Assembly: GCA_021234155.1 (NCBI GenBank)
Contig: JAJEKV010000001.1
Span: 16,313,491-16,377,490, forward strand
Direction: 5' to 3'
Source of the DNA: Isoetes taiwanensis
Taxonomy: Eukaryota > Streptophyta > Lycopodiopsida > Isoetales > Isoetaceae
Length of the DNA stretch: 64,000 nt
Shown: positions 1 to 57,059 of the stretch, one piece after another
How positions within the stretch are numbered: the stretch's first letter is position 1
How the letters are laid out: each line of letters opens with the position of its first letter
Notes under the pieces: generated by a model
What the model was told of the DNA's origin: nothing
Seen by the model: the letters and a program-made list of their open reading frames with translations, nothing else
Databases searched by the model: none
Translations under genes and position numbers: made by a program

Positions 1-1040
1 TAACCTAACGTCGCGTTTAGAAGCGACCTCGACCTGCGGCTGCTGGGTTGGCCTCGGTAGTCCGAATCAACCAGGGAAGCACATAAAACTTCCCGTTTTC
101 ACTTATAGATTTCTGGATCATTTCGGCCTGCTTGTGGCATGATTTGGTTGGTTTCAGGTCGGTTCCTGGCCACCAGGATCAGGTTATTCACAGCCAAAGT
201 CTACTCCAATCCTCCGGATTTTGCATTCTTTCCACATTTCGGCCTTCCTAAGGCCCAAATCGGCCCATTTCAGGGCGATTCCCATACTTTTCAGACATTT
301 CCATTCGACAAGATCATGCCGACTCTGCATGCTGCATGCAAGAGAAATTCCACTGTCTTTGCTAGTTCTGGCTTCATCACTTAATTTTAACCCATTCTTA
401 TTCAAACATCCTAACCAATCTAACCCATCCCAGCTTCCTCTACCACGGATTACAGTCACACCTCTTACTATTACCATGATGGAAATTTCAGAAAAATATT
501 CAATTTGTCAATATTAAAGAATCACTATCCATGCCGTGCGTTCATGTTAACAACCATGCTCATACAATCCAATTCTATTCCCAGGCTAGATACATAACCA
601 CAAATTTAAGCAAGCACATAAATGCTACACTAGAAAACCCCAGGTGTAAGTCTTGATCCCCACCTGGAATCCCCCTTACTTCCTCTGCACTCCAACATGC
701 TCCCAAAGTATTGCTCACACCTTGCTCCTTCAGCAATTCGACTGCAATCTATCGCCTTCCAAATGCTTCACGCTGTACTTGTATTTATTATTAATCACCA
801 GTATATTTATCCGTATAATCTCTACATATACGATATATATACTCTGCATGCATAGTATTTTAATTATTATTCCTTTGCATCCTTTAATAAAATAATTCCA
901 CAATGTACCTCAAAATCCTAGGTCCGTTACTTGGTGCTATTTATGAGACCATTAATTTAAACTTGAACCTAGAAACATATTGAGTTGGTGCTCAAATACG
1001 CGAATTAAATTGGTGCTTAATTCGTTTATGGACACAACTG
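1..1040. other. AT-rich intergenic DNA, nothing recognised
   Basis: No frame here has recognisable protein similarity, and the short open frames overlap on both strands. The motif ttggtgct recurs three times between about 930 and 1020. I see no RNA gene and no repeat ends. Confidence 0.4.
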
Positions 1041-1078
1041 AGAACAACTGCCTTCAGAAAGGAGGAATTATTATGGAT

Positions 1079-1659
1079 ATGTTAGCTCAGGGGAGTGGGC
1101 TTGAACATTAGTCTTGGTGGACTAGCATGGGTGTGCAAGATTGGTGAATTAATGGCAAGGCAAGGTAGTTAAATTGGCAAAGACATCTTATATTAGTGGT
1201 GGTTAAATAATATCTTATAAGATATTATTTAATGGTTAAAACATTATAAGACTTTGACTAAAATAGGTAGAGCCATAATTGGAAAAGGGGCAGCGATCTT
1301 TTTGAAAAGGGGCCAGCTTCGGATATATAGAGGTTGCATCGAATCTTCAACCATTCAGTTTCCGGATATTCTTCAATAGGCTGCTACAGTCGGATTTGCC
1401 TGCGACCAACTCCACCCTTTAAGCCAATCGAATTCTTCTTACTGGAAATCCTGATCCTTGCTTGGAGATTTGCGATTGCCTTCTGCCTTGCTGTTAATTT
1501 TGCCAGATCTTAACACTGTTGGCCCAGTTGGGTGGTGAACTGCCATTAATTGTCTTTTATCTTGGATCTTCCTCTAGTTTTGATGAACTAGAGCCAGATC
1601 ATTCCGCGTTATTGGTGTAACTCATAATAAATAGGAGCTATGAGTGCGAACTGGGATCA
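1079..1659 (+). mobile_element. possible LTR, solo or 5' end of a degenerate retrotransposon
   Basis: The stretch starts TG and ends CA. It contains a TATA-like tatata near 1322, a polyadenylation-like aataaa near 1627, and is followed within about 5 bases by tggtggcgccaaaagtgg, which resembles a primer-binding site beginning TGG. No gag or pol frame follows and no second LTR was found, so the boundaries and the class are weak. It also contains a 30-bp perfect palindrome. Confidence 0.28.
1203..1232. repeat. perfect 30-bp AT-rich palindrome
   Basis: Bases 1203-1232 equal their own reverse complement over all 30 positions, with no spacer. It could extrude as a cruciform. It lies inside the possible LTR upstream of the TATA-like box, which is compatible with a regulatory role, but nothing shows this. 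Confidence 0.85.
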
Positions 1660-1868
1660 AAAACTGGTGGCGCCAAAAGTGGCCTAGGATTAGGTTTTAA
1701 TCTCTTACGCATTGGCTACAAGAGGGTGTGTTCATGTGGCAGATCACCTATAGGGTGAAGCCATATGGAACCCTCCTAAGGTTGGTTAAGTTATATAATT
1801 TACTTGACCATGCCCCATATTTGGTGCATACAAGTCTACCAATATAGATTTATATGGTGGCATGGCCC

Positions 1869-1897
1869 AGAATATACATATTTATATTGTATATTCT
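1869..1897. repeat. inverted repeat, 10-bp arms with 9-bp loop
   Basis: The arms agaatataca and tgtatattct are exact complements at 1869-1878 and 1888-1897. It is AT-rich and may be chance. It falls in non-coding sequence downstream of the possible LTR. Confidence 0.6.
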
Positions 1898-2358
1898 AGG
1901 GAAACGTCATAACAATGTTACAATTCGAGAGAAGTGAACAGAATCTTTGTAAGCACAATCCTAATATCAGAAAAGTCAACCTCCAGCTAACCAAGAGACT
2001 GTAAGGGTTTTCGTGTGCAGATGACAGACATTGAAGTCCTACCCAGGTTAAGGCAATATAAAATATCTAATTGGTAATACCCAGGAACATCTTAAGATAT
2101 TCATGCACTAGCTTCACTGCGTTCTTCATTATGTTCTAATTACCAGTTATTTAGTGGCGGGATTAAACCGCTCCAAACCAGGTAAGAGCCGGTTCACATG
2201 CAACAATGGTGGGAGAGGGGCCCTGTTATACCCTTTGTAAATTCGTGACGGTCCGTGATGGTGGGCGTAAAATGGCATGGCATTTTACATGATGGTGAAG
2301 GTGGCGATGGTGCATGTGAATCCAGCCTAATAAGATATACACTATGTCAATCGTAATA

Positions 2359-2787
2359 CAAGCCAGGGCCTGATTACTGTCTTTTTGCCCTAAAATTATG
2401 GCACGCAATCCTTTCGCCGCTTCCCTGCTTTCCTCCGCTTCCATTTCTTTTCTCTCTTTCCGCAGGTCCCCTTGTGGCTCTGCCCTTCCTTTACTTAGCT
2501 TAGATTTCTCTTCTTAGCTTAGATTTCTTTCTTTTCGCAGGTCGGGCAAAAGCAGAGATCAAAGCAAAAGCAGCAGAGATCCGGCGAAAGCAACAGAGAT
2601 TCAAGCAGCAGAGATCCAAGCAGAGGCCCTATTTTTCGATTCTTCCTTCAAACGGCTCTGCTTTACTTTGGCCTTCGATTCTTCCTTCAAAGGCCTTATT
2701 CCTTCGATTCTGCCTTCTTCCCTTCAACGATTCAAACTTGCTCTGCTTTGCTTCGTTTTCTACTGTTCGTAATCAGGCCCTGGCGTG
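2359..2787. mobile_element. non-autonomous TIR element (MITE-like), 429 bp
   Basis: The left end at 2359-2377 and the reverse complement of the right end at 2769-2787 match at 18 of 19 bases (CAAGCCAGGGCCTGATTAC versus CACGCCAGGGCCTGATTAC). Both ends are directly flanked by taata (2354-2358 and 2788-2792), which fits a 5-bp target duplication. The interior repeats agcttagatttct and gcagagat motifs and has no credible transposase. The superfamily is unclear: CAGGG resembles hAT ends but an 8-bp duplication is absent, and the TA next to each end could instead extend the inverted repeat. Confidence 0.7.
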
Positions 2788-2799
2788 TAATATATTATG

Positions 2800-4790
2800 T
2801 CCCATAATTCCACGGCTGGGAGGGGATGCACGCACAGTAGGGCTTCTTTCGGCGGCGGCCACAAGCCTCGGCCCGGGCACTTCAGCGGCTCAGGCTCGTC
2901 GCGCCTCTCTGGCGCTGGCGCCCGCTCGGCCGATTTTTCTAACCTCTTAGGCAAGGGCAATAAATCATTTTCAAAACCAGTGACAACAATTAACATCGTA
3001 ATGGAATGCAGCATTAATGATTAACTATTCAGAGTATGCTATTCATAACGAATAATCTGAGAACAAACAGAGTTATCTGCAGTATATTCAATATGAATAA
3101 ACCAAATATCCACCAGTTTTATCTCACAATCAAGCCATAATCTAACAGTAACGGAAATGCATCACAACAAGCTTGATAATAAACAAGAATCATATACATA
3201 GTTCAGATTTGCATAACAGAATAATGGATAGACTTATCTCTTAATAGCCACAACCAACAGCCATAAAATTATCAGATCTTCTGGTGACTCTCCATGGTTC
3301 TGCACTGGTCTGGTCGGATTTGCTTCCTCGAAATCTTCTGCTCTGATATACTTCTACTCTTCCTGCTCTCTAACAGAATAATGGTTGGCCTCCCTAAATC
3401 TGCTATGTTTGCACCTTATCTGGTCGGCCACTTCCTTTAAATGCTTCCTGCCTGGTTTGCCTCTTTCTCTGATCCATTCCTGCCCTTCCAGATCCGCTCG
3501 CCGCTCCTCCCTTCGTTCTCCTCCTTTCAACCGTAACCTGCTTTGCTGCCTTCATGCCTTTTCAATTCAAAAGGGGCTTTTGTTCTTAACCCTTAGATTC
3601 TAATAAATCTCCACCCTTGGTTTTATTTTAATAATGTCAAGGTAAGTGGATCACCATTCTTGTATCTTCTTGAACCATTCTTGTCAAGAATGACAAATCG
3701 CCCTCCAAAACCTGTAGAATCCAGTCTGCCTTACCTTGACGTAGTAGAAATGGCATGGGGTCAGCAAGAATGGCTTTCCCCATGCCATTCTACATAACAT
3801 CTCTTTCTTCAACCATTCAAACAATATAACCCCTACAAGGTTTATAACTTCAAATAACATCCCCACATGCTAATATTGCTAATATGACCCGTTTTGTAAA
3901 ACTTAGCATGGTAAGATCACATGGCATTGCTCCTTTGATCACGTTTTCACCCAAAATGCACAATTTTGAACAAATTATTCCTTCTACAGAGACCCGTCAG
4001 TATTGACTCTAGTGTATTGTTTGACTCCTAGGAAATACATCGTACTTTTTTGCTAACATCCATTAACTAGCACATTGCAATCCGAAATACCCGGTCTTCT
4101 CTTCCTAAGCTATACTATTCTCAGACCATGAACTCATATAATTTATTTGTTGCCCCATATAAATGGCTTGGTTGTAGTCTCCAAACTTATGCTGGAATTG
4201 CTAGCATATTATTAGATTGTTTATAGAAGACGTACTGGAATTATAAAGATGAAAAGTCTGCCTTTGAAGTGTTTTAAAATTACCTGCCTTATTGGACATG
4301 GGAATTGTGGTGGACATACTTGTTCCATCGGATTAAATTCTTGTTTCCTGATTCTCTAACCATCAAGATGGTTGATTGTAAATTTCTCAATCTTTTCAAA
4401 AACATCAAGCATCTTTTCAAAGCCATTATCTAGCTGTAGGATCTGCAACCTTTGCTAAAATTCTAGCATTGAGTGCATCTTTCACCTTTTTTTAAACACC
4501 AATAGCTTCATTCCCTGTCAAAAGTTGCAATAAAAAGATCCCAAATGCAAAGACATAATGCATGTGTGACAATATATTCAGAGTCCATAACATTGTGTCA
4601 CCAATTGTGTCCACTTTTGGAACCTGTCAGAGTACCTACAATTGTTACTTCAGAAATGGATATTGTTTTCTTGTTCTTTCTATCAAAGACAATTGAAAAG
4701 TTCAAATTAAAAGTCCAAAGCATGTTAATATTCAAGGTCAAGGTAAAGAAAGTACTAATGGAGGTGGAAATGAATGAATCCAATTTAACA
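2800..4790. other. intergenic DNA, nothing recognised
   Basis: Short open frames on both strands lack coding character or recognisable domains. A GC-rich patch at about 2820-2945 stands out from AT-rich flanks but has no frame I can name. Confidence 0.4.
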
Positions 4791-4796
4791 CTTACA

Positions 4797-4834
4797 AGAA
4801 ATTTATCGCGGCGGCCGCCGCCGCGAACATTTCT
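4797..4834. repeat. GC-rich hairpin in AT-rich DNA
   Basis: An imperfect inverted repeat has arms of about 18 bases (agaaatttatcgcggcgg against the complement of ccgccgcgaacatttct). Its core is the perfect 14-bp palindrome gcggcggccgccgc, which includes a NotI site. The composition contrast with the flanks is sharp. No flanking duplication was found. Confidence 0.6.
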
Positions 4835-5886
4835 CTTGACCGACTTGATGTTATTTCGAGATGAAATTTTTCTACTAAATAACCTATTCATTAGTCGAGT
4901 TAAATGCCAGTCTAAAAGTTAATAGGCAACAACATTTAAATACATGAAATCAGTTTCTTTAAATGGAATGGTGAATTGGGCTTTTAAGAATTCTAGGAAC
5001 TATGACCCTCAAATTGAATATTGTCTACTTCAGGAACTTGATGGGAAACCTTAGTGTTCCAATGGAACAAACAAATATCAAAGAAGATACAATCATGGTC
5101 TACGCCTAGTATTGTCCTTCTCAAGTTAAATCTTGGGCAGAAGATAGAAAGCACAAATGACTAGGTCATAAATCCTTGGCAAACACTCGTCATAAATGAT
5201 GTGAATGCTAGGACTATCATTACTTGTTCAGCACCTTCTTGTGCAACTCTAATGCTTTAAGAGTTCCTATTTCACAAATCATGGGGCCAACATGTTCAAA
5301 ATCATCTGTATTATATGGGTTTTAAAATAGTAAGAATTTTAGATTGATTGATGAGATAAGGTTTGTTGCAAATGTTTTTACGAAAATTTTGGTCGAAGCA
5401 ACAAAATTTAAAAAGAAATAATTGTTTGCAATTGTTGGAAAAACGAAAAAAGGAAGATTGTTCGAGAAAAAAACACAAAAAAGATGTTGAAGAAAGAAAA
5501 AGCTTCATGGCAGCGTCTTCTGCCAACCATGCTGGATTGGAAGCACAATGCAACAGCCCTTGACATGGAGCATCGCATTTTCTCTTCCAATTTCCATGCA
5601 GTTGGATGATTTTCGACTAACGGCCACTGGAAGATTTTCTATGTGCATGCTTGATGGAGATGGGGGAGGAACTAAAAATAGCACGACAATTCCAACATCA
5701 TGAATTGACAATGGGTATGCCACATCCAACATTTGCTGCAACTTGCAATTTCAATCATTATAGCAATCATTGGTCTATGCCTTTGTGTATATTTACAAAT
5801 TTAAAAGTATTTATATGATTTATACTTCTACACAATGGCCACTACGCCAAGCCATTTGGAAACTTATGGAACATGTGCTCATACAT
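4835..5886. other. intergenic DNA, nothing recognised
   Basis: A lysine-rich open frame at 5363-5563 (66 codons) overlaps long A-runs and resembles no family I know. It is best treated as composition-driven. Nothing else stands out. Confidence 0.35.
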
Positions 5887-5894
5887 GGACAGAC

Positions 5895-6628
5895 CATAGC
5901 TACCGGGAACCAAGTTCCGAACTTGGTTCCCGTTCCCAACTCCGTTCCCGAGCGTCCTGAGTTCCGGGAACTCCGAGCCAAGTTCCCACTACATGTGCTA
6001 CCGGGAACTTCGTTCCGGACGAAGTTCCCATAAATGGAAACTTGAGTTCCCGGTAGCAAATTTTTTGGGAACTAAATTTACAAAGGAATGGAAAAAAGAA
6101 AGTGTCGAATATGATTTAAAACAATGCTATTTTTTCCCTCCTATTTTTTTTACAAGGCTTAAGATTTATTCTTCACCGCATCTGCTAAATGCAACCTTTT
6201 GCTACACAATTTGTTAACTTTGCAATAAAAATCTTTTCCAGTCACGTTTCCATATTTTTGCAATTTGAAATCTTCCCAAACTAAAGTTTTATGTTGGTAT
6301 TAAAGGTGTTTTCAGTTTTATGTATTTTTAGTTACTATATTCTAGTTATGTGTTCTTTCTAAAAGCTTATAACTTCTTAAAATTGTTGTTTTCAAACTTT
6401 ATATGAGCATTAAACAGTGGTTTTATCTATTACGTTCACACATCACTATGTATTTCACTTTTTTCTATTCTATGTGTTCTATAATGATCTACATGCAAAG
6501 GGAACTCCAAAACCGTTTGAATTTTTAAAAAATTCGAAGGTTGGACGTTCCCGTTCCCATCCGTTCCCGTTCCCGTTCCGAATTTTGGGTCCGAGTTCCC
6601 GTTCCCGTTCCCGTTCCGGGTAGCTATG
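5895..6628. mobile_element. hAT-type MITE with GGGAAC-rich ends, 734 bp
   Basis: The left end begins CATAGCTACCGGGAAC and the right end ends GTTCCGGGTAGCTATG, so the terminal inverted repeat is 10 perfect bases and then imperfect. The 8-bp duplication ggacagac flanks it exactly (5887-5894 and 6629-6636). An 8-bp duplication is typical of hAT elements. Inside both ends lie arrays of the hexamer gggaac or its complement gttccc (about 5895-6060 and 6540-6620). The interior is AT-rich with no transposase, so it would have to be moved in trans. Confidence 0.8.
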
Positions 6629-6639
6629 GGACAGACTAG

Positions 6640-8270
6640 TTTTAATAAGATTTCGATTTCTGAGACTTTTATAGAAGTGGCCATTATTTATTAACTGAAT
6701 GACATAGATCAACTTATGCAAAACTCCAAAGACAAAAACTTTAAATTGCCTTAAAAATATTAACTTAGATGGAAGCTTTTGCCTAAATTTTGGAACAGAT
6801 GCATAGTATCCATACATTCATTGTGGAATGGGATTGCAACTGAAACCTTAACCTTATGGCAGATGAGCTTTTACTGATCTGGCTTCTACTTGAGACAATC
6901 TAGAATTGACCTTCCCCTTCTCCAAATTTCTATTTTGCCTATTTATATTTTCCATGCAGATGTTCAATGTGCTGCTGCAACTTTGCTATTTCCTGCACAA
7001 CAACAAAAGGAAGCATCATGAAAAAAAAAATATCCATTCTCAACTTGCAAAAAGATGGAACTATGGAAAATGCCTATTGGACCAATCACTGTATGCATGC
7101 ATTCTCAATGCCAAACTCAAATCCTGTGAGGGTGATAGGCTCTTGAAAGCACATGCAAAGTTTTCTCATAAGATAAAACCATATCTTTCTGGTTCTGTTA
7201 TAGAGTTGGGCTGCGTTGTCATCATCGCATCACAGCATATGATTCGATAAGTGCAGGCGCGGCCCCAAACTAGAAATAATAATAAAAAAAAGACTAAGAA
7301 CACATGCAGCAGCCAGCTCTTTTATTTACATAAGCTGAACAGAGTATAAGCAACAGACCAGAAGTTCATCTTCATGGTGCAAAAATTGTCTGTTTGATAT
7401 AGGCTAAACACTAGTTCAAACTTATTCAAGCCATCATGCTCTATTATGCTCTGTGATACATGAGAAGAGAAGTCTTGCCAGTTCTGAAAGGAGTTGCTAC
7501 TGCAATCCATATGCATGTGAGCACAACTTGGTGTCCCACAATAAATGGTCGTTCCAGCATCAATTTTACAATACATCATCCCCCTGTTTTTTTTAAGGGC
7601 AAGCCATCTCATAATTTAATTTAGAATTCCTTACTCTTGCCTCCTCATAATCATTGGGCATCTCAACAAAATATTAGCATAATCAATGCCTCAGCCAACT
7701 TATTATTCAAAATGACGATTAATCAGCAAGTTGCAGCTTCCAATTTAAATGCCAAGAAATTCTGGCAAAATTTAGTGCAACCAAGCAACAATGAGCCCAA
7801 ACAACACTGCCAAGGATGCGCAACACCCCTCTTCTCAGCATTTAATATGGGAAAGCAGGCAAACAAATGAGCACATGCAAGATTTAAAGTAATGGATGGC
7901 ACGTGATATAAACAATGCATGCACTTACCTAGGATACCAGAAAGTATAAAGATGAAGACATGCAGTAAGAATACTATACCATTTTTGTAACTTTTGCCCA
8001 TGATGTTCTTTCCAGAGATGAAAATGTAATTGTTCTCCTTTCCAAATTGATTTCCTAGCAGTTGGCATCAAACAGAAATACTTGCTCAGAAGAGAGCATC
8101 CATTTAACAGAAAACCAAACTTACGTTGCAATCTAAACAAAATGTAAGCTAGAAACACCGACTCTAAGGAGCAAACAAATGATGGCAACTACTGTGCGAA
8201 TGGTCGCAGAGATGCAAAACCTTCTTGTGCTGGCTTCAGGGCAGTAGGTTCCCCGATGCCTTTTTGGGGT
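6640..8270. other. AT-rich intergenic DNA upstream of the Rep gene
   Basis: Open frames on both strands (for example 6906-7250 plus and 7322-7612 minus) show no domain I recognise and no consistent splice-phase chain. If the Rep gene is part of a mobile element, its left end could lie in or just after this stretch. I could not find a repeat marking it. Confidence 0.35.
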
Positions 8271-8525
8271 TTTTTTTTTGGTTTTTTTTGGGGAAATGTT
8301 GCCTGCCGCTGAAGAGGGCGGTGGTTTTGTGCCCTGCTTCTACATGGATGGCCGGATCTGGTTGTCTGGTTTTGGCATGTCTGTGAGTAGCTACCTGGCA
8401 GTGAAATCGTCCTGCTCCCAGGTCGTTGTGGCAAATTCCCTCCGAGTTTGTGGGAGGCTGGCCGCGTGGCCCTGCCTTCTGGGAAGCTGTTTTGGGTCTT
8501 TAATTGTGCATGCTGGTGCAGCGGG

Positions 8526-10539
8526 ATGGCGAGCAGCAGCAGGTCTGCGGAGGGAAGCAATCCATCTGTTGGGGCATCTGCAGGTAACTTGTAAATTCCC
8601 TTCATGTTGAAACGATTGGCCAGAGAGTGGAGAGGAGGGAACGGTTCCCTTGATGAGGAGGGCAGGCCTCCTGAAAGCAGTAAAGCTGGAGCAGCCAGGA
8701 AGAATTCCGTGTCCCTTATGTGCGGCCCTGCTTTGCTGGATAGTGTTGTAGGTTGTCCCCAGGTTGCCTCTTATCCGCTTTTCCACCGTAGTACCTATGT
8801 AGAAGTTCCCTCTGAGGAGCTCCACCTGAGCGCAGAAAGGGCCCAGCATAATCTGAATGTGCTTGCTGAGGCCTGTAACGCTGCTGTGCCAACAAGGAAG
8901 AGAGGCAGACCACGCAAGGAGGCGGCAATTGTTATCCATGAGCAGAATCAGAGGGACGAGATGAAGAGAAGGAAACAGCAGGAGAGAGATGAGAAGAAGA
9001 AGGAGAGAGAGCAGAGGCAGAAGGAGAAAAAGGAGGCCCGTGAGCTTGCAAAGAGGGAGAAAGAGGAGAAGAGATCTTCGAGGAGACAAAAGGGGCAAGA
9101 GGGTGATGATAGGAGTAATGTTTTGGACGTGAGCGTAACAGTCACAATTAGTGGGTCGGATATAGCAGAGGACCATTACCTCAGGGTTTGCAAATTTCTT
9201 GATTCAGATTGCATAGCTGGTATGGTGGCAGTTGAGCGGGGATCGGAGCTGGATCACCTGCATTTGCAATGTGTGTTCCGTGTCCCTATGACAACTCCTG
9301 CAGCTGTCAATGTGCGCCTCAGGAATGCTCTGGACTGGACTAGCCATCGTCCACCAGGAGGTGTCATCATGTGCAAGGCATTGAAAGATACCCGCCTGCA
9401 CTGCTTCGAAGGAATGCTAGGATACTGCTTAAAAGACAAAGGGAAGCTACATTTTAGGAGTCATATGAAAGATGTCACTGCAGACCAGCTAGAACGTGGC
9501 AAGAATTTGTATGCGCTTTATGGCGCAGGAGAGATCAAGCATTGTGTCGTGCTAGATAACAGAAACCTTTTTGGTCGTGCTGGACACTTTGTCATGTACC
9601 ATGGTAGACGGCAGCGCACTCCAAGCTTATGCTACACTATTGCACGTATGCTCCGTACTGGAAAGTTTGTCCTCTCAAGTGCATGGGTGCTGCCATGGAA
9701 TTCTGCCCGGATTAGTTATCATAGGGTGGAGGCTGCTTGGAGATTGACGCTAGATCCCAACCATGCTTCCATCAAGGATGTTCGGTGTGTTATTTATGGC
9801 CTCCCTCCAGGTGAAGAACCCATAGAGAAGGTTGGCAAGAGACGGCGCAGATTCTGGGATGATGCATTAGATTGCAAGGAATTAGACAGACTTGACGCGA
9901 TGCTGGAGGAAGAGAGCAGCACTGGGGAAGGGGACGATGCAGTTGATGTTGTAGATTATCCTACAGATGAGGAATACCGTGAGGAGACCGCAGCCTTCAT
10001 ACCTCCTGTAGACCCGAACCAGTATTGCTTGGCAGATTACATCCCCTTAGACGTAGAGGACCATGCTTTCCAGATTGGATAGTATGCTTCTTGCAGTTTG
10101 AATTGCCTGTGTTGCATGAATGGATTAATTGAGTCGTCTTCTTCTTGTAGGTCCCACTGGAAATGTAGCAGCGCGTGAGGAGGTGGAAGATGGTTGCCCC
10201 GCAGCACCATTCTCCGCTTTCATCTCCTTGGATCCTGATTCCCTAGAGGTGGGCGCTGCTGGAGAAAACAATCCTCCACACGAGGGGCCTTTTTTGGACA
10301 TCGATTGGTTGAAGGAGCAGACTTGGAGATCTGTGCGTACGCTGTCGCTCGCCTTGGCCAACATAGTTGATGTGTTGGAAGAGGCCTTGACGGCGATGGA
10401 TGATCCTGAGATCGCTGTTGACCAACGGAACAGAAGAGTTTTCAGGGCAGAAGTGAATCACGTGAGGGCGATGCTGCTGTCCAAGCTCCGCCAGTTACAG
10501 GAGCTTGCTTCAAGGCACCCCCGCACCATGAGAGCTTGA
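8526..10539 (+). CDS. Replitron-like Rep (HUH endonuclease) transposase, spliced
   Basis: This is predicted to nick and rejoin single-stranded DNA during replicative transposition. A 492-codon open frame runs from the ATG at 8604 to a TAG at 10080-10082. In that numbering a beta-strand like motif I is VTVTISG (about 177-183), the metal-binding HUH motif is HLH (H218, H220) in a context typical of CRESS-type Rep proteins, and motif III is YCLK (Y274, K277), with one catalytic tyrosine. Upstream are an AT-hook-like GRPRK segment (101-105) and a charged coiled coil (about 112-164). No Walker A or helicase domain is visible, which separates it from Helitrons and CRESS viral Reps and fits Replitrons. 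A better start is the ATG at 8526. Exon 8526-8583 ends CAG|GTAACT and joins in phase 1 to the acceptor TTGTAG at 8751, removing 168 bases. The C-terminus is uncertain (see the 10151-10539 entry). The locus is clearly GC-richer than its flanks. Confidence 0.8.
8584..8751 (+). other. predicted intron 1 of the Rep gene, 168 bases
   Basis: The donor is cag|gtaact after 8583 and the acceptor is ttgttgtag before 8752. Both exons are in phase 1, and the join creates a glycine codon that leads into CPQVASYPLF. The exon 1 peptide starts MASSSRSAEG, a plausible plant N-terminus. The alternative is translation from the ATG at 8604 inside this intron, which has a stop codon immediately upstream in frame. 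Confidence 0.6.
10151..10539 (+). CDS. candidate last exon of the Rep gene, helical C-terminal domain
   Basis: An open frame of about 129 codons starts after the pyrimidine-rich acceptor cttcttcttgtag at 10150 and stops at 10537-10539. Its second half is rich in leucine, alanine and charged residues (for example SLALANIVDVLEEAL) and looks like amphipathic helices, which could serve oligomerisation. To join in phase, the preceding exon must end in phase 1. The best donor I see is C|GTGAGG at 9978/9979, which would replace the last 34 residues of the 8604-10082 frame. The donor-like gtatgc at 10082 would recreate a stop codon. The long frame may be a retained-intron form, or this exon may belong to a separate product. 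Confidence 0.45.
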
Positions 10540-10723
10540 TAGAAAGAGCTTCTCTTAGTGTTTATATATATGTGTATAGCGGAAGTTTCTATGTTGCTGT
10601 GAATGGTTTTGACGGTTCAGTCGTGTAGCTGAAGTTGTTGGCAAATGGAGTGTACATGAGCTGTTCATGTACTGTTTCTCTGTGTAATGTAATGCTGTTA
10701 TAATCTGACGTGCATATAAAGTC

Positions 10724-10771
10724 ATGGGTCTCGATTAGGATGGGTCTCGATTAGGATGGGTCTCGATTGGG
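10724..10771. repeat. three tandem copies of a 16-bp repeat
   Basis: The unit atgggtctcgattagg occurs at 10724-10739 and 10740-10755, then once more with ATTGGG at its end (10756-10771). It lies about 185 bases after the last Rep-gene stop. Short direct repeats at or near the termini are reported for Replitrons, so this may mark the right end. No matching unit was found upstream. Confidence 0.8.
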
Positions 10772-10848
10772 GCAGAAAGAAATGAACTAAAATTTAAGGG
10801 CGGAGCTCTTCTTATTTATAGACAAAGGAAAAGGAAACAACTTACAGC

Positions 10849-11040
10849 TTATTCAACCATGTTCTGGCTGTCTGCGATCCTACCACCTGTCTGCACATAT
10901 CCATACAGCTGTTTGCCGGAAACAGATCCACCACAAATTTGTGACAGATGGCTGGAGCACCAAGGCGCTGCACAAAAACTCGGCAGGCTGGCCTGACCTA
11001 GCAGAATCATGGCGGCGTCTATGGCGCCGAATAGCTCCAA
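10849..11040 (-). CDS. hypothetical 63-residue frame, coding status doubtful
   Basis: A minus-strand frame with cysteine- and serine-rich sequence (SFCAAPWCSSHLSQICGG) lies in a GC-richer patch just downstream of the Rep gene. I recognise no family. Its proximity could mean it belongs to the same element, but no conserved feature supports this. Confidence 0.15.
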   Translation of the reverse strand: MELFGAIDAAMILLGQASLPSFCAAPWCSSHLSQICGGSVSGKQLYGYVQTGGRIADSQNMVE

Positions 11041-11044
11041 TTGG

Positions 11045-12850
11045 CGCCGGATTAGCGAACGCAGTGCTCCATTGTCGGCAGCGTAGATTTTTTCAGGTTT
11101 TTTTTTTTTTTGCTATTTTTTTTCCCACTCGGGAATCAAAGAGGCATCAAGGCATCGAATCTTGGTGTATATAAATTATATAAGAGTAGATAAGTGCCCA
11201 ATACCGAGATCAAAATTAGTAACATCTCATATTGTTAACTGATATTATTCTGCCATGGATCGGTGTGTGCTTATAACTTTATAAAAACTTGAGACCTTGC
11301 CTGAATCAGCAATAAGGCTACCGACATGTACGGCAATAACATGATCCTGGTCTTAAGCCTTATCTGGGTTTATGGTTGCTTGGGATTGTTCCTACGCAAG
11401 AACACGTCATTTATAAATGAATATAACGGAATTAAGTATTTTAAGCCTAGTGACGGGATCGAGGAGATGCATCCGACGCTGGAGTGATCTTAGATTTTCG
11501 CTCATGGAAGAAAATGGGTGAAAACTAGTAAATAAGAATGCTAATTTTTAAACAGAAAAAAAAAAAGTTATGAAAAAAGAAAGAGAGAGTCGATTACAAT
11601 TTTTTTCTTCGATAATAGTGAGATTAGTATCCTCAACATCACATATTCGTTACTAAGTTTGAGATGCTAATTCTTACTATAACATTGCCACAGCTCTGCA
11701 ATGCAGATCAATTTTAATATACCTATCATTGCTGTCGATATAGATTATTGACTTGCAAGAAATATGCTTAGGTAGAAACAAAACAAAGATAGTGCCGAAC
11801 AATCAAGAAAAACCTTGAATAGGCGATGCACATTTACTTGCCCGAAAGAATAATCCGATGTTATGATGCCCTTGAAGAAAGAATGACTGTCATCTGACAG
11901 CCAATTGTTAACTGATTGTCAAGGAAAAAATCAACAGAAATATCTGTTGTGCCATAGCTCTGGCAACTCGAAGAAGAAGCTAGAAAGCTACAAAAGATGG
12001 AAGAGGGGGTAGAAGAAGACAGAGGCGGCGAAAACTCAAGCTACTTCTCAATCCCCCCCAAAACTATTTTTTTTTTCCATAAACATGTGTCGCCGGTATA
12101 TTAAAATAAGGTAGTGGCTGGAAGCGGTGTAATACAATTACATAAGTTTGGATAAAACGCATGTTGTAATTACTTGCATGCAACAGTAATATTAATTTCG
12201 CATTACTTAAAAAAAGTGTAATTTGGTTGTAATATACACAATGTCCTTTTTGGACGATATACTAACAAGACATTGGTCTTATTATTGGTTTATGATTACG
12301 ATTAAATTATTTTAACCATGCTCTCATCATAAATATATGTCCTTGCAATAAACTAAAAACTTATTTTTTACATTAGCCATGTTCGTCTTATGGCCTTCAC
12401 TAGGTAGGGTGAGTGAGTGGAAAACCACAAAAAAAGTAATGATCATAACATATACAAGACATTTAACGAGGGAGCAAGTGGTTGCTTGAAAGTTCCGCGT
12501 CAAGTTGAAATGGTGGAAAAGTGAAGGAAAGTGGTGCAAAGACGTGTGTCCCTCCATTTCCTTGGGGAATCCTCTACATCATTCAAGATTCCATCAAGAT
12601 TCTCCTATTATTCCTCTCCATTTTCTTAATTTTCTTTCAAATTCAATAAGATTGCATTGTGATTCTAACATATTCCTGCTGTTGAGACTCCTTCAAGGTC
12701 CTTCCAGGGTTCCCTCGAGTTTCTTTAAATTCTAATAGGTTCTATTTCCTTTGATTCTGCAAGATTCCTATAGGCTCCTTGAAATTTCATTAAATTCGTT
12801 AGGATTCCTTCATAACTCTCCAAGATTTCTGACAAATATCTTAGAAGTAG
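11045..12850. other. AT-rich intergenic DNA, nothing recognised
   Basis: There is a long T-run near 11095 and many short A/T runs. A stretch at about 12570-12850 contains repeated attc/gattc-like words (for example aagattccatcaagattct). I see no coding frame with recognisable similarity. Confidence 0.4.
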
Positions 12851-13474: not shown

Positions 13475-14165
13475 AAGAGGTGCACCAGAGCTAGGGCATG
13501 GGACCACTCATTTAGAGAATCTCGCAAAGAAGAATTCAACGACATCATTCCACTTATTCGATGCTCCTGCATATAGGGAACATCACTCCCGAACAGTGGA
13601 AAGAATAATTGCAGCAGCTTTATGATCTCCAGGGTGCCCGGACAGCTGTACCTGTCCAGAATGGCTCAGTGATGGAAATCACGGAGGCTGATGTAGTTTA
13701 GGGCGTGCAGCATCTTGCCAATGGGAAAGTGCCAGACCCATGGCGCCAGTCCTAACTGCCTTGTTCAACAGGGCGTTAGAAGTAGGATTTTTCCCACAGT
13801 GGCTTGCTAACAGAGTTGTGCCCATCTACAAGGCAGATGACCCGCATTGCATGGCCAATTATCGAACGATCATGATCAGTTTGGTGTTCACCAAACTGCT
13901 AGCCGGAATTCTCGAGCATCAACTGACTGGTTGGGCCGAGCCGACAGAAGTGTGGGCCTTTACACAAGCAAGGTTCACGGTGCAAACCCTGGTCGAGAAC
14001 AACAGGAACCTTAGGCAGGACTTGTACTGCTGGTTCGTAGACTTTGCCAAAACTTTTGATACTATGCCTCGAGAAACGCTATGGGTACAGTTGTGAGAAC
14101 TAGGAGTCCTTGCAGATCTACAGAATATACTTTATAGGCTATATGAGAGGTGCTCAGGCCAAGCA
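13475..14165 (+). pseudogene. reverse transcriptase fragment, LINE family A
   Basis: The frame at 13740-14096 covers the N-terminal half of a LINE reverse transcriptase: LANRVVPIYKADD, NYRTIMISLVFTKLLAGIL and WFVDFAKTFDTMPRETLW match conserved fingers/palm blocks of the other copies in this window. The catalytic YADD region is missing, because the copy stops where a minus-strand copy of the same family begins (14166). The region upstream to 13475 carries degraded N-terminal sequence. It is not functional. Confidence 0.75.
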
Positions 14166-15103: not shown

Positions 15104-16278
15104 TCACTCCCAAAGTGCCCGGGCCAAGAAGGCCTTCTGTACCTGCTCTAGATCGTTCCAAGTGGTGAGGGATATCACTGGCCCCCACACTTCTGCCCCA
15201 TAGAGGAGGACCGGTTCAACCAAGGCCCTGAACAAGTGTGCCTGGTGACCCCATGCATACAAACTCTCCTTGTGACTTGTTTTGCATTGCATCTGTGGCT
15301 TTCCACCTGCAAAGACCCGTAACCCGATGGATGCATCCCAAAGTGTGGTAGTAGAAAACTCAATGCCCAAATACTTATAAGAATGAGCCACCTCCACTAC
15401 CCCGCCCCGGTAAGTGAATGAGGGAAGGCGTGGGTGCCGGGATGATGGGACCAAAGAAGACACCCTTGTCTTGGCCAAGTTAACTCTCATGTCGCTGAAT
15501 TGGCGCGTAAAGTCCAAAGCATCCGTGGCGCTGCATGTCCTCCCTGGTATATGCGCAGGTCAACATCATCAGCATATATGAGTTGCCGGATTATGTGGTG
15601 CATCAACCGAGCCTCCCCATGCTCGCCTAGCCATTCTTCTAGCTGGTCAATGTACAAGCCGAAGAGCGTCGGGGATAGAGGGCAGCCCTGGCGCACCCCA
15701 ATGCTACTAACAACGGGCTCCCCCGACAGTATGAGACGACCGGAGCAAGCCTCGTATAGTCTGTATATAGCATTCTGCAAGTCGACGGGGGTCCCTAGCT
15801 GTCTCAATCTGTCCCACAACTTATCCCGAGGCAATCGTGGTCAAAAAGCCTTTGCGAAATCCACAAAGCAACGTAAAGACAGCATTCTCAAGGCCGATTC
15901 CGGCTATCCTCTATGAGTGTTCGCAGAGTGAAGATATGGTCAATAGTAGAATGCCTGGGCGGAAGCCACTGCGAGAGCCCCAAGACTTCTCCATCCTCTC
16001 GCCCAAAGTGTCAATCGCCAAGAATCCCTAAAGCAACTTGGCAAAGACGAAACCCCACCATAATGGTACGATAGTTGGTGGGTCAGGGGGTCCCCCGCTT
16101 TGTATATGGGCACAACTCTACCGGTAGTCCAAAGTCGCGGGGAAGCCTTCTTGCAATGCCCCGCTGAAGAGTGTCTTTGAGAACCGGCACCATTGGGGGC
16201 CCGCCCCATTTGAGAAGCTCTGCCGCGCATACCATCCAAATCTAACGCCTTCCCGCTAAGCAGGCGTTGCGGGCCCAT
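15104..16278 (-). pseudogene. reverse transcriptase domain, LINE family A
   Basis: Minus-strand frames carry the RT blocks in order. VVPIYKAGDPLTHQLSYH lies near 16080. At 15487-15834 are MPRDKLWDRLRQLGTPVDLQ, IGVRQGCPLSPTLFGLYID and the catalytic LIYADDVDL. At 15104-15517 are HSYKYLGIEFSTTTLWD and LVEPVLLYGAEVWGPV of the thumb and downstream part. The YADD box is intact, but at least two frameshifts separate the segments, so no functional enzyme can be made. Confidence 0.85.
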
Positions 16279-19010: not shown

Positions 19011-19720
19011 TGGCGGATTGCCTGTATGGCCCGCCTGTCGGGTCGACTGATAGTAGTATCGGGGTCCCTCAGGGATGCCCTCTCTTCCCAACATTCTTTA
19101 GACTCCACATTGATCAGCTCGAGCACTGGCTTGCCGACAATGATGGGAATGGGATTCAACTATTGCACCAGATCGCCAGATAGCTAATATGTGCAGATGA
19201 TGTGGATCTTCTAGCCTACATCTTGCAGACATGCAATGCCACCTTGATGCCTTGGACACATTCTGCCAGGCAACAGACATGGACGTCAACCTGGCCAAGA
19301 CCAAGGTGGTCCTCATATCATCATCGCGCCTGCTAAGGATCCCTTCCATCAGTTACCACGGACAAAATGTATAGGTGGCACGAAGTTACAAGTACCTGGG
19401 AGTGGAGTTTCTTTCTGCCATATACTGGGACACTTCCATTCGGCTGTGGATGATAGCACGTTGGAATGCACTATATGCAATGCAGAACAACATCCACATA
19501 GCGGAGCTGTATGACTGGACTCATCAATCGCACATGTTCAGGGTCTTGGTGGAGCCTTTCCTTTTGTACAGAGTTGAAGTCTGAGGGTCAGTGGTGTCCC
19601 TCGCCGCCTGGAATGAATTGGAGCACGTGCAAAAAGCCTTCTTGACACAGGCATCTGGGGTGAAGTCTACAGTCCCGTATCAAATCCTGTTGCAGGAGAC
19701 AGGCAGAGCGCCAAGAAGTA
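19011..19720 (+). pseudogene. reverse transcriptase fragment, LINE family A
   Basis: Plus-strand frames give IGVPQGCPLFPTFFRLHID followed, after an in-frame stop, by LICADDVDL (ADD catalytic box, with cysteine replacing tyrosine). Then come ARSYKYLGVEFLSAIYWD and LVEPFLLYRVEV at 19375-19584. It could be the continuation of the copy interrupted at 14165, but the two pieces overlap by a few tens of non-identical bases, so a separate copy is equally likely. Confidence 0.7.
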
Positions 19721-22375: not shown

Positions 22376-22388
22376 GAATGGGGGGAAT

Positions 22389-23290
22389 TAGGATTCGATG
22401 TGGTAGGTGGAGTCATGTATGAACCCAAAACGACTAGCATGTGCTCCTGAGGTAGACGAAGACTCTGCATGAAGCGACCATAGAACACACACCAACACCA
22501 GACCAACTCCAAACAAGAAAACCAAAAGAAGGCGACACCAAATGGTCAAGGGAAAGGACGTCAGATGCGGGTATACATCTATGCAGCACACTTGACCTGG
22601 AATACCCACAAACCAAATAAGCGCAAGCACGAGGACAGAGAAGAATATCAAACACTAAAACAAGCATCCACGCGACACACCAAGCGCAAGTAACAAATAA
22701 GACAAAGGGGAGCGGGAGAGGGAACCGACTTTCGGGAGAGGGTTATGGGATGTCAACATGAAGCACGCACTCAATCCTCCCCCCCCAAATACAAGATCCA
22801 TCACTTGGCTCTAACCAAACAGGACTGACTCTTAGGATGCTAGATGGGTGTTAGTTTTAATCATTCTTATAACCACATTAGACCCTAATGGTCCCCATAG
22901 ATTCCCCCCATACGGGGGGTCAAAGGAAGTGGGGCCTTCCCCTTTTGAAAGCCAAGTCACCAAAGACATCCCCATGATACTGCCACTATACCCCCCCTCC
23001 AAAAAAAAAAAAAAAAAAAAAAAACAATGCATGGATGCCCTTGTCCCTGTTTGTAACCATGCAAAGAAAACCATGCACAAAAATAGGGCATGAAAGGCAC
23101 AAGATATGACAGGGCGGGTGCGAGGCTTCATACCTCCAGCACCCTCGAGTACAATGAGGCCCCTATACATGGGCCAATAAGAGGCTCTCATCAAAAAAAA
23201 TTTGCCCCGTACGAGGTGTCAAGGGGGGAGACCAGGCCCTCTGAAGAACCTAGAAAATACTTCCAGCCCATAAAATTTTTTTTTTTTTGT
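22389..23290 (+). repeat. dispersed repeat module X (diverged copy)
   Basis: It starts gattcgatgtggtaggtgga and follows the X module of the 52-64 kb region through aggatgctagatggg, accctaatggtcccc, ggtcaaaggaagtgggg and catgggccaataaga. Long A- and T-runs at 23000-23023 and 23277-23288 vary between copies. Open frames in it (such as 22832-23194 minus) occur in the same place in other copies but lack any known domain. X may be part of a non-autonomous retroelement; its class is unknown. Confidence 0.7.
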
Positions 23291-25904: not shown

Positions 25905-26744
25905 TTGGGATAGGAATAACAAGAAAAGTTTAGATCGTGCGTTATGGGAGCAAAATATGGTCAATGAAGCTGATGGGAATGGTGAAGGGAATGGCGAAGA
26001 TGATCGTTTAATGCTGCAAATTCAAACTCAGCGTCAGCCACTGCCAATGCCACTGAAAGCAGCACAGGACGAAATTGAGTTCTTTAATCCTTTGCTGGTA
26101 GGAAATCCTTTCCTAGAAATGCTTGGTTTGATGAAGACTGCAAGCAGCTTAAAAAACAATTGCGAATGATAGTTGAGCGAGATATGCGACATAATGCCAT
26201 TCAGAATTATAAGCCTGTTTTGAAATGCAAGAAGGCACGTTTTGTTGCTGAGCATCAGAAGCAAGTGTTTGAATTATTGCTACGTGAGCCTCGGACCTTC
26301 TGGCGCAAAATATTATATCGACCACCTCCTACCCTTGGACATATTTCTATGCAGCAATGGGATGAGCGATTGGTCCACTTATATGATCATCCTGGGGTCC
26401 TTAATTCTGTGCCTCCTTTGGTAGGTGATAATCTTCAATTCACAGAGGAGGAAGTCAAAGAAGGACTGCGGCATCTATCTAATGGCAAGTCTCCTGATCT
26501 TCAAGGTTTGCAAGTAGAATTGCTTAAATGGAGGGGTCCACTATTGCTTCCAATCATCACTACTCTTATAAATCAAGCTTTGCAAGAAGGCTTGCTAGAA
26601 TCTTGGGCTGTCAGTAAGATCGTACCAATTTACAAAGCAGGTGATAAGCATGACCCTTCTAATTATCGCATGATCATGGTAAGTTCCATATTTACAAAGC
26701 TCTTAGCCGGCTTCTTGAGAAGCAGCTTGACATCATGGGCGTAA
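25905..26744 (+). pseudogene. LINE family A RT, N-terminal half
   Basis: Two overlapping frames give NRNNKKSLDRALWE, then after a shift LRMIVERDMRHNAIQ, EPRTFWRKILYRPPP, EEVKEGLRHLSNGKSPDLQG, WAVSKIVPIYKAGD and SNYRMIMVSSIFTKLLAGFL. These are the pre-RT linker and first RT blocks. The usual NGKSPG-DG motif reads NGKSPDLQG. A frameshift near 26160 and the loss of frame after 26740 make it non-functional. Confidence 0.8.
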
Positions 26745-27810
26745 CATACCGTGTATGCGTCTTTGTAGGGACAAAGTGTGCTTTTCGTCAATGCCATTCT
26801 ACAATAGACCATATTTTCACATTGTGCATGCTTATTGAACATAGTCGAAGTTTGAAACAAGACCTCTATATATGCTTTGTGGATTTTACTTCTGCTTTTG
26901 ATACAAAGATTACCCGCTTCTTCTTTGGCAGCGCTTGCGTGCACTTTGGGTTCCACAAGATCTTCAAAATGCGGTTTATCGGCTCTATGAAAGGTTTTTT
27001 GCTAAATTTCCAAAGATCGGTACTCAAATCACTAGCAATATTGGAGTTCGTCGTGGTTGCCCTTTATCTCCTACACTCTTTGGCTTGTACATTGATCAAT
27101 TGGAAGAATGGCTTGATAATCATGGCGGCGGAGGTCCACATTTGGCACACTATATCATTAGGCAACTTATGTATGCCGATGATGTTTCACTTCGCACATA
27201 CTGCCGCTAGTATGCAAAGAACATTTACATGCTCGCGACAGTTTACGTGAGAACACAGTGCGTGTGTTAATCTCAAAAGACCAAGCTTTTGGTAGTTCAA
27301 TCTTCTCGTCACAATGTTCCCCTATGCACTATGATAGCGCGAAGTTGAAGTTGTAGATAGCTACAAGTATCTTGGTGTAGAATTACGTAAGAACACACTT
27401 TGGGGAACAAAGTGTATTACCAAGCCGGTAGTCTATTTGGATGGAGAGCACTCTATGCAATGCAAAACAATTGTTTTCGCAGAAATTCATGATTGGCCAC
27501 GGAAAAAGCCCACTTGTTTTGGGCTTTGGTAGAGCCTGTTTTCTTGTATGGTTCTCAGTGTGGGGCCACGCTATTAGTGCTAGTGCTTGGGAGAGCTTGG
27601 AGCGGGTGCAAAAGTCCTTTCTCACTTACAGCCTCGGAGTTAAAACAACGGTGTCCTATGCTATTCTTTTACAAGAGATAGGTTTTTGGCCTCTTCAACA
27701 TTCTGCCATAAAGCGCCATCTCCACTATATCTGTAAGGTGCACCACATGGATGATGTTAGGTATCCCCGTTCTTGCACTTGCCATGGTGAATCTCCTCGG
27801 TTTTGAAACG
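26745..27810 (+). pseudogene. LINE family A RT palm, thumb and C-terminal part
   Basis: Frames give LYICFVDFTSAFDT, VPQDLQNAVYRLYERF, IGVRRGCPLSPTLFGLYID and the catalytic LMYADDVSLRTYC (26935-27210). Then LVEPVFLYGSQCGA and FLTYSLGVKTTVSY follow at 27441-27806. The catalytic box is intact but is separated from the N-terminal blocks by frameshifts. Confidence 0.8.
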
Positions 27811-42239: not shown

Positions 42240-43010
42240 AGGAATCAGAGAGGCTGCAGGTTGCTAAATCCTCTGAAAGATCCACAACCGCCGCCGCTTC
42301 CAAATCAGCCACACCAACCAAGCCACGCACAGATGCAAGGCTTGCTGCAGCAAGAGCGGCCAAGCACCAGGATACACATGAAGCAGCAACTGCTGGCTAG
42401 TCAATCTAACCTGAAACAGAGCCATGACCCAATCCCAGGCAGGCTGCAAGTGAGGGCATAAAATCCAGACAATGCTCCACAGTCTCACGATGAAGGCCAC
42501 AACAAGGGCAGAGAGGGCTCACACCCGGCCTAAACTGACTCACAAGGGCATTCACCCTGATACAATGGTGCACCACCTGCCACAGAAGCACCCTAACCTT
42601 CAGTGGGGGAAGTGAGCTCCATGTTCACGTCCAAACCGAGCGCCATCGAGAACCCGGAAGCTGCAGAGACCACTTGCCTGAAGGGGGCAGAGTGTCATGA
42701 ATAGCTAGCACCCGGTAACAAGACCGCACAAAACAAGAAGACACAACATCCGGATGAACCTTCCAAACCTGCACCACCACATCATCCTGAGGGACTATAG
42801 GTATGTGTAGCGGAATACTCCCCGCCACTTGTTTCCAGATAGCCCGGTCACTGCCCCTCAGGCGAAAGCGAGCTCGAAAGAACTCCCACGAAGCTAGCTG
42901 ACCACCCCAATACCAATCCTCCAAGGTGAGCACAGCAGCTCGCCTCCAATGGGCCTGCATCCGAGCATGCACAGTGGCAGCCCACAAACTAAGAGCGAGC
43001 ACTAAGACAA
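42240..43010 (-). pseudogene. C-terminal part of an L1-like ORF2 with zf-RVT domain
   Basis: Minus-strand frames read AHWRRAAVLTLEDWYWGGQ, IWKQVAGSIPLHIPIVPQDD and VVSSCFVRSCYRVLAIHD, then after a frame change LLWQVVHHCIRVNALVS and CPCCGLHRETVEHCLDF. That is the conserved zinc-binding reverse-transcriptase tail (zf-RVT: C-x2-C...H-x3-4-C) of plant LINEs. The RT core is absent, and the fragment abuts an X-module repeat at about 43012. Confidence 0.75.
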
Positions 43011-43011
43011 A

Positions 43012-43393
43012 GAAGAACGTCAGACGCCAGGCATCCACGCGACACACCAAGTGCAAGCACTACTAGACGGGGGGTGGGAGGAGGAACCAACTCACGGGGA
43101 GGGTTACAAGATAAGCATAAGCACACACTCACCCTCCAAACATAGGATCTCAAGCATCCAAGAAGAAATCAAGACAGACCCTCAGGACGCTAGATGGGTA
43201 TAAGATATAATCATTCTCGGACCACATCGGACCCTAATGGTCCCAAGAGAGCCCCCAAACAGGGGCCAAAGGAGGTGGGACCATCCCCCTTTGAGAGCTA
43301 AGTCACCAAGCAAAGACCAAGGGCCACGCCATATAGCCCCTCCATCCCTTAGGGAGGGAGGGAGTTACATGTTAAAAGACAAGAGCTCAAGGA

Positions 43394-45015: not shown

Positions 45016-46467
45016 TTAATGTTCTAGGATCCAGGTCGGGGGAGTCCAGTTCCATTTCGGTTCTGTCTCCCTCCTCGTAGCAAAGGTTGGGCACCATATA
45101 TCAATCCATTTGTTGGCCTTCTCTTCTTTTTTGTCATCATTGATTTTCTTCTCCAAGATCCAGGCATGCTGGGCTGCTATTGTTGCCACAATATTGGACC
45201 ACAGTTCTACCATTAGCAGGTTTATTGGGATCTCCCTTTGTTCGAACAACATAACAGTGTAGCATTTCCAGATGCACCATACTGTGTAAGCTCTTATCAC
45301 TATCCAGATTTCTTGATCATTTCTAGTTCCATTGATCTAGTATGGCCCAGCTGTCTCATTGAACAGGGGCATTGTGGTTCCTGCCCAGTGCCATGTGATT
45401 ACATTCTGGTCATAAGTCATTTCATCCTCTTTCATGCCCGTGAGGACCATGTGCCACGAGATGCTGCTGTACAAGTTTGTTATTGTGAGTTGCTGCCATA
45501 TTTTTATTGCTTTCTTCCATATGCTTTGTGCTTGTTGGCATAACCAGAAAACATGTTTTTGAGTTGCAGGTTCTCCACACCACTTGCATGCATAATATGT
45601 TGGGGGCTGACCCCTTGTATAAATTCTGGGGATTGCACTTTTGTTTGCCATCAGCCAAGTTAAGTATTTGACTTTTGCTTGGCAGACATTGGACCAGATA
45701 AGCTTTAGCAATCTTGCTCTTTTGATGTCTCGTTCTATTCCCATGGTTATAGCTTTCTGAAATAACTTTGATGTTTCATTTTTCTGTACAGCTTGCACGC
45801 CTATCTTGGGGGTGAAGGAGAAGAAATTGAACTGCCCTGTACTGCCATATTTCCAATACCACATTAGGGGGTCCCAGTCGAGCTCTTCAGCATTGCAATT
45901 TCTGAATATCATTAGATTGACAGGTTGGTCTTTTTCCACCTCTGGATCCAAGGTCATGTCTTTTCCTTTAAGGTCCACCACTCTTATCTCTTTGCATTGT
46001 ACTAGTTTTTTATCCTGAATGTCTGCTACAATTTTTTGCTGAATGTTTCCTCTTTCATTGGCAGTGAGTTTATATCCCCTATTCTCTATGGCTGAAGGTT
46101 TGAACCAGACCTCTCTTTCATTGTTGCTATTAGTTGCTGGGATCCAATGCCATTTCTCTTGTACAATCATATTCTGGTGAGTTAACCCTGCCCAACCATC
46201 TTTTATTGCCTGCAATAAAATTTCAACATCACTTACAATTCTTTTCCTTGTACATGGTCCTAAGACTTGCAGAATCTTTTGCAAAGTGGCTTCTCTTGTT
46301 GGCATGATGATCCTGTCAAGATCCTCCACCACCCTGATACCCCTTTCATGTAGCCATCTCCAGCCTAGCTTGTATCTGTCTTCCCCTAGTTGCTGGTCCC
46401 TAAACTGGATTCTGGAGTTATGGTAGAGGAGCTGTTTCTTGAATTGATCAGGTGTAATCTGCTCCAA
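45016..46467 (-). pseudogene. L1-like ORF2 C-terminal region with zf-RVT
   Basis: A 376-codon frame (45337-46467), continued in other frames to 45016, includes KARLLKLIWSNVCQAKVKYL and YACKWCGEPATQKHVFWLCQ, the C-x2-C...H-x4-C zinc site of zf-RVT. It is the part of LINE ORF2 downstream of RT. It is separated from the RT by stops near 46470 and 46800. Confidence 0.8.
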
Positions 46468-46483
46468 CTATACCAGCATTGGT

Positions 46484-46768
46484 TTAAATTGTTCCCAAAG
46501 ATTGAATAGGCCAGCCGAGAATCCCTGGAGACCTTTGGCTTTGAGGGGACAATTTGCAAAGATCCATTCCCTTTTTTCTGTCAGGGGTAGCTTTTAGCAG
46601 TATGTGTCTAAAGAGGAGCTTCCAAGGTTGCTGCCCTGGCGAAAAAGCTCTCACAAATATCTTAAATAATAGGGCTTTTGCCTGTTTGACTGGGTCTATC
46701 AGGCCCAAGCCACCGAAGTCCTTTGGCAAAATGACATTTCTCCAGCCCACTTTGGAGGCTGGGTTCAT
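46484..46768 (-). pseudogene. L1-like ORF2 linker between RT and zf-RVT
   Basis: The frame starts with NPASKVGWRNVILPKDFGGL and GLIDPVKQAKALLFK, matching the conserved W-x-x-x-x-P-K-x-x-GGLG-hydrophobic block found after the RT domain in plant LINEs. It is isolated by frameshifts on both sides. Confidence 0.75.
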
Positions 46769-46925
46769 TGGCCCTGCTTTGCCCCTCTATAGATAAATTC
46801 TGATATGTTTGATTATCTCATCCAGATATTTCCTTTTTACTACCCATCCACTTGTGAGATACCACAATGCTCCCAATATTATGATGTTTATAACTGTGGC
46901 TCTGGCAGGGAGTGAGAGACCTTTG

Positions 46926-48528: not shown

Positions 48529-48565
48529 TATTCAATGGCTGTTCTCTGCAACTCTGCATCCTCTG

Positions 48566-49223: not shown

Positions 49224-49241
49224 TCTGGTACATTTAGCCCC

Positions 49242-50507: not shown

Positions 50508-50747
50508 CTGATACCTGTAACTTTTGACATCTGTGCATCATCCATAGAGGTTATCTGTACTTCATTTACTTTGGCTTTTTTCTTTCTTTCAATGCTCCCT
50601 TTTCTCATAACATGTTCAATGTCCTGTTGTGGCAGGGGTGTCCAGCTTGGTTTTGTTCCATCCAATTTGATCACACTTGCTCTAGCTGAACAACTAGCAG
50701 GTTGATCTTTCTTTGGAGTATTTCGTTGGGCAGACCTCAAGTCTTGA

Positions 50748-53830: not shown

Positions 53831-53859
53831 GAAAAAAGTACAAGTCCATAAGATTTTTT

Positions 53860-54120
53860 TTTTTTTTTAATTCCACCCTGTCCCTTGGTGCCCACATCGG
53901 CTGTAAGGCACCTGCCACGTGCCCTTGGATACTTGCCACGTGTCCCAATCCCATAGAGTCAAGGTTTGACCTTATTCCCCCAAAAAAAAAAAAATGGTAG
54001 TGGTTGGGGGAGGTCCCATCACTCATGCCACCCTGCCATGTCAGGCCTGCCACCACTGCCATTTCAGCCTGCCACTGCTGCCATGTCAGCCACCTAATCA
54101 TGCCAAGTGTACTTTTCCAA
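53860..54120 (+). repeat. dispersed module Y
   Basis: A T-run is followed by aattccaccctgtcccttggtgcccac, then the gccacgtgcc word twice, tcaaggtttgacc and several ctgccactgctgccatg-like repeats. Copies lie at 57660-57990, 59265-59525 and 63080-63400. Confidence 0.75.
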
Positions 54121-57045: not shown

Positions 57046-57059
57046 AAAGTTTGTCTTAT

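Follow-up and report, generated by a model that had tools for sequence, protein, structure and literature searches.

Replitrons, eukaryotic transposons reported by Craig in 2023 in PNAS, have a single catalytic tyrosine (Y1) and no helicase domain, and the founding Replitron of Chlamydomonas reportedly moves by copy and paste. Helitrons combine a two-tyrosine Rep with a helicase, and in the Reps of CRESS-DNA viruses and plasmids the HUH motif is followed by YxxK, usually together with a helicase domain. Helitrons are presented as eukaryotic transposons with an HUH nuclease in PMC13231165, which gives the general HUH chemistry as a tyrosine that cuts one strand and remains linked to the 5′ phosphate. 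A 2023 review (PMC10741241) lists Replitrons from green algae, liverworts, mosses, lycophytes and ferns, assigns them a length of 0.9-4 kb, and describes their ends as short direct repeats of 5-11 bp accompanied by a target duplication of 2-8 bp. As of that review, annotation software for Replitrons did not exist.

The gene described here is located in a 64-kb stretch of DNA from Isoetes taiwanensis, the whole of which was analysed and is called the window below. Judged by its sequence, it looks like a further example of the Replitrons, an already known kind of element. Its main open frame starts with an ATG and ends with a stop codon at 10080-10082, and the run between stops extends over 495 codons without an internal stop. 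For comparison, 2000 sequences were generated from a first-order Markov model of positions 8248-11090; their longest run was 320 codons, with a mean of 147, and the 495-codon open frame is thus beyond chance. The frame of 492 codons reported in the preliminary description is present. The features of the locus are collected in the table.

The assignment to the Replitrons is carried by a profile match. A profile search covering Replitron and CRESS Rep families, as suggested in the preliminary description, returned PF21859 (Replitron_HUH) as the best Pfam-A match when the whole protein was used (72 bits, cut-off 28.5, E 7.6e-20), and the match runs through the profile from end to end. When the HUH domain alone was compared with Pfam, PF21859 was found at E 4.5e-21 and there was no second family. 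Up to E 10, 13 Pfam families are listed for the whole protein; the 12 besides PF21859 all stay below their own cut-offs, and their best stretches all fall within residues 97-182. Downstream of the HUH domain, PF21860 (Replitron_C) was the sole family for residues 304-458 (13.2 bits, E 0.12, cut-off 27). It was again found without a further family for residues 304-492 (12.8 bits), and together with one weak family, CysG_dimeriser, for residues 330-492 (13.2 bits). As PF21860 is the expected partner domain and is found in the right order, we consider this weak signal credible, yet the cut-off of the family does not admit it as a match.

The motifs named in the preliminary description could be located by motif search or in the sequence itself: HLHLQ from residue 218 (H218, H220), YCLK from residue 274 (Y274, K277), the AT-hook-like RKRGRPRK from residue 98, and the charged stretch. 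VSVTVTISG is found from residue 176. Both HLHLQ and YCLK are inside the domain matched by PF21859, which has tyrosines at residues 192, 274 and 303, with YxxK occurring only at 274. Because the match comprises 127 positions in the protein as well as in the profile, the HUH and tyrosine motifs would be placed on the family columns, and we infer from this agreement in length that Y274 occupies the catalytic one. For the region of RKRGRPRK, the Pfam AT_hook model has a cut-off of 17.4 bits and scores only 13.7, and the charged linker attracts low-scoring matches to unrelated Pfam families. Neither of two simple Walker-A-like patterns has a match in the 492-aa protein, in agreement with the preliminary description, where no Walker motif was seen. 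Together with the full-length PF21859 match and the lack of any helicase family among the Pfam matches, this supports the earlier reading as a Replitron-type, one-tyrosine HUH Rep gene without a helicase. Structure prediction without an alignment gave a mean pLDDT of 35.1 and 39.7 in two runs.

Table. Features of the Replitron-like locus; coordinates refer to the window and residue numbers to the 492-aa protein.
Feature	Position	Strand	Basis
Possible 5′ exon MASSSRSAEGSNPSVGASA, donor CAG/GTAACT at 8584	8526..8583	+	Donor with 5/6 consensus bases
Main open frame, Replitron transposase (Rep-type HUH endonuclease), very probable	8604..10082	+	492 aa; Markov null
AT-hook-like basic motif RKRGRPRK, residues 98-105	8895..8918	+	Motif search
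Linker of high charge, probably helical, about residues 113-164	8940..9095	+	By eye from sequence
HUH endonuclease domain, PF21859 Replitron_HUH, residues 177-303	9132..9512	+	Profile 1-127 of 128
HLHLQ, HUH motif, H218 and H220	9255..9269	+	Motif search
YCLK, candidate catalytic tyrosine Y274 and K277	9423..9434	+	Motif search
Weak PF21860 Replitron_C match, residues 347-394	9642..9785	+	Profile 26-73 of 77; 12.8-13.2 bits, cut-off 27
Possible 3′ exon, ORF2 frame	10151..10539	+	Pyrimidine-rich acceptor; weak codon signal
GGTTTTTTTTTT, candidate left edge of GC-rich block	8268..8279	+	T-run near GC step
Tandem 16-bp units ATGGGTCTCGATTAGG x3, iteron-like	10724..10771	+	Repeat search
GGTTTTTTTTTT, candidate right edge of GC-rich block	11096..11107	+	T-run at GC step

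The preliminary description had given the gene a larger extent, 8526-10539. An ATG is indeed present at 8526, and a second open frame, ORF2, occupies 10129-10539 (+). However, a stop at 8592 lies between the upstream ATG and the main frame. Two introns would be needed to join all parts, and the sequence gives no firm evidence of them. Donors and acceptors were scored against the splice consensus. The in-phase acceptors for the donor at 8584, with exon starts at 8695 and 8752, are poor (3/11 and 4/11 pyrimidines). Before 10151 there is a good acceptor (10/11), but no GT with at least 3/6 consensus bases occurs in 9851-10100 as a donor for it. The length of ORF2 is not significant, as a run of at least 136 codons in some frame is found in 1175 of the 2000 Markov sequences. 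The codon score of ORF2 is 0.151 in its own frame and -0.111 and -0.039 in the two others, but this is only slightly more than what two control stretches reach when their best frame is taken (0.118 and 0.099). A comparison of ORF2 with Pfam yielded no match. One tblastn match of ORF2 at 19034-19123 (37.5% identity, E 0.38) was taken as chance. A three-exon gene covering 8526-10539, with its stop codon at 10537-10539, is possible.

The gene is embedded in a GC-rich island, as had been claimed. A two-boundary model places this block at approximately 8181-11080, with ranges within 2 log units of 8141-8301 and 11050-11100; its length of about 2.9 kb is inside the Replitron range in PMC10741241. 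The window has exactly two occurrences of the sequence GGTTTTTTTTTT, which is GGT(10). One is located at 8268 and the other at 11096, so that each of the two edge ranges holds one, and the reverse complement of the sequence is absent from the whole window. Upon random placement of the 10 T-runs (at least 10 T), both edge intervals were struck in 39 of 200000 trials. The intervals were 8141-8301 on the left and 11050-11110 on the right, where the fitted range is narrower by 10 bases. This test was chosen after the pair had been seen, and a T-run pulls the GC boundary towards itself, so the pair is treated as a candidate edge only. The GC-rich block with its GGT(10) edges is likewise only a candidate for the extent of the element. 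In the 500-bp window 11001-11500, at the right edge of the block, the CpG observed/expected ratio is 1.16, the adjoining 500-bp windows having 0.54 and 0.64.

Pairs of target duplication and terminal direct repeat (TSD/TDR) were searched between 7201-8526 and 10540-11400. The best score, 16, is due solely to poly-T. Pairs other than poly-T reach at most 11, while the best scores of 100 shuffles are 10-15, with 79 of the 100 reaching at least 11; poly-T aside, the end repeats are thus no better than those of shuffled sequence and were rejected. Downstream of ORF2 there are three tandem 16-bp units, the third with one change, and no further copy of the unit was found elsewhere in the window with up to 3 mismatches allowed. 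They might form an iteron array to which Rep binds, in the manner of CRESS replicons, and the element might have inserted into T-runs at both edges, but we consider this reading very improbable. If it were true, it would tie end recognition in Replitrons to the layout of viral origins. A perfect 8-bp hairpin stem at 10652-10672 was also considered. The surrounding stretch folds at z -2.69, and the other five of the six folded stretches are unremarkable (z -1.24 to 1.28). Such a stem is found in 73 of 1000 shuffles of 10540-11100, and 55 are listed in the window, overlapping rows included. In view of these counts, the stem was dropped as evidence for the element. Further upstream in the window, two perfect stems, both of the type GGGAAC...GTTCCC, are found about 100 bp apart (5905-5931 and 6003-6029), and a tandem repeat is located close to them at 5914-5950.

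The window contains several other repeated or mobile sequences. A LINE-like element is spread over long open pieces at 45337-50537 (-), with a zinc knuckle at 49242-50537 (E 0.0002), a reverse transcriptase (RVT_1) at 47275-48531 (E 3.1e-19) and a zf-RVT domain at 45337-46467 (E 6.2e-07). Broken frames at 13692-14093 (+), 15104-15559 (-) and 26088-27247 (+) appear by eye to be remains of LINE reverse transcriptases, and none of the three has a Pfam match at E 0.01. Near the end of the window, a 5.4-kb unit is present in two tandem copies which are 96% identical (52657-58020 and 58027-63438). Within these units there are shorter repeats, to which 22388-23012 and 42981-43381 are related. Each also contains one fragment of eukaryotic small-subunit rRNA (RF01960, 106 and 144 bits), at 56873-56990 and 62136-62408, which may be rRNA-derived sequence that travels with a mobile element. 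The rRNA fragments mark the host as a eukaryote, and the reverse transcriptase pieces agree with this; a non-seed plant as host would be in line with the Replitron distribution in PMC10741241.

Relatives of the protein were searched well beyond the window. Residues 165-492 gave no relative at E <= 0.001 among 3112 candidates from the protein collection, and residues 170-310 gave none at E <= 10 among 218 candidates. Contigs were scanned with six exact peptide patterns each, which reach close relatives; the two viral scans gave 6 and 12 pattern matches and the prokaryote scan gave 7, none of which was confirmed. Missing relatives are weak evidence here, since such scans would overlook distant relatives and the collections consist mainly of prokaryotes, viruses and metagenomes, presumably with few plants. 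The result says little beyond that this gene would have no close kin among the Reps of prokaryotes and phages. A sequence search against solved structures gave eight matches, all at E 0.79 or worse, and seven of these overlap the charged linker.

With respect to its general layout, the gene could be compared to other systems with an HUH nuclease. It shares the order of HUH and YxxK motifs with the Reps of CRESS-DNA viruses and plasmids, and it has an HUH nuclease in common with the Helitrons of eukaryotes. A Helitron, or an integrated Rep gene from a CRESS virus or a plasmid, has to be weighed against a Replitron. However, neither CRESS Rep nor Helitron nor helicase families are found in Pfam up to E 10, for the whole protein or for its domain pieces, so the helicase domain usual in viral and plasmid Reps has no Pfam counterpart here. 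PHROGs returned three families, none better than E 0.39 and none bearing the name of a Rep, and NCBIfam returned 15, all at E 0.21 or worse and none convincing. The sole helicase model among the latter, the RNA helicase RhlE2, is placed on the charged linker with E 5.8 and 5.1 bits, its cut-off being 925, and we take it as chance. Plasmids and phages gave no match at E 0.01. The second tyrosine and the helicase of Helitrons are not seen in this protein, which has one YxxK in its domain and no Walker-A-like pattern. Taken together, an origin from any of these systems is extremely improbable. Compared to Replitrons, on the other hand, the HUH domain fits the family profile from end to end and has one YxxK tyrosine motif, no helicase motif was found, and there is a weak match to the C-terminal domain of the family. 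The differences are that this C-terminal domain stays below its cut-off and that the short direct terminal repeats and target duplication were not found at this locus.

A different issue is whether the gene still belongs to a mobile element. Taken alone, the open frame would be compatible with a young copy, with domestication or with mere luck. In the preliminary description the locus was regarded as possibly a young copy; apart from the open frame nothing was found in favour of this. The CpG observed/expected ratio of the frame (ORF1, 0.49) is not above that of the flanks (0.57 for 1-8000 and 0.53 for 11200-64000), so there is no hint of specially young or protected sequence. In the window, a second copy of the protein was not found (tblastn, E <= 1), and blastn of 8000-11300 at E <= 0.01 gave the self-match only. 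A host gene that was domesticated from a Replitron transposase, and became fixed in place for a host function, would agree with this single occurrence, with a frame that is open over its whole length, with the lack of convincing end repeats and with the possible introns. Yet the HUH and tyrosine motifs are present and there is other mobile-element sequence in the window, the reverse transcriptase being an example, and we regard domestication as improbable. Somewhat more weight has to be given to a dead Replitron copy whose frame is still open by luck. The similar CpG depletion of gene and flanks, the stop between the upstream ATG and the main frame, and the fact that no ends were found all point in this direction, while a run of that length without a stop and the intact motifs argue against it. 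We consider a dead copy unlikely, though with a chance that should not be neglected, and it is compatible with the preferred explanation, its odds overlapping with those of the latter.

Returning to this preferred explanation, we consider it very probable that the gene encodes a Replitron transposase which acts in the manner of its family. The open frame, the motifs and the full-length family match are directly established. By analogy to the family, H218 and H220 would hold a metal ion in the HUH domain, and Y274 would nick one strand at the end of the element and stay bound to the 5′ phosphate. As the protein has no helicase of its own, it would rely on host enzymes for unwinding and copying, and the element would move by copy and paste. 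The basic linker, like the AT-hook-like motif, probably adds DNA binding.

This gene leaves the knowledge of the Replitron group unchanged. Being open and complete with respect to its motifs, it could well serve as a candidate on which to test a mechanism with one tyrosine and no helicase.
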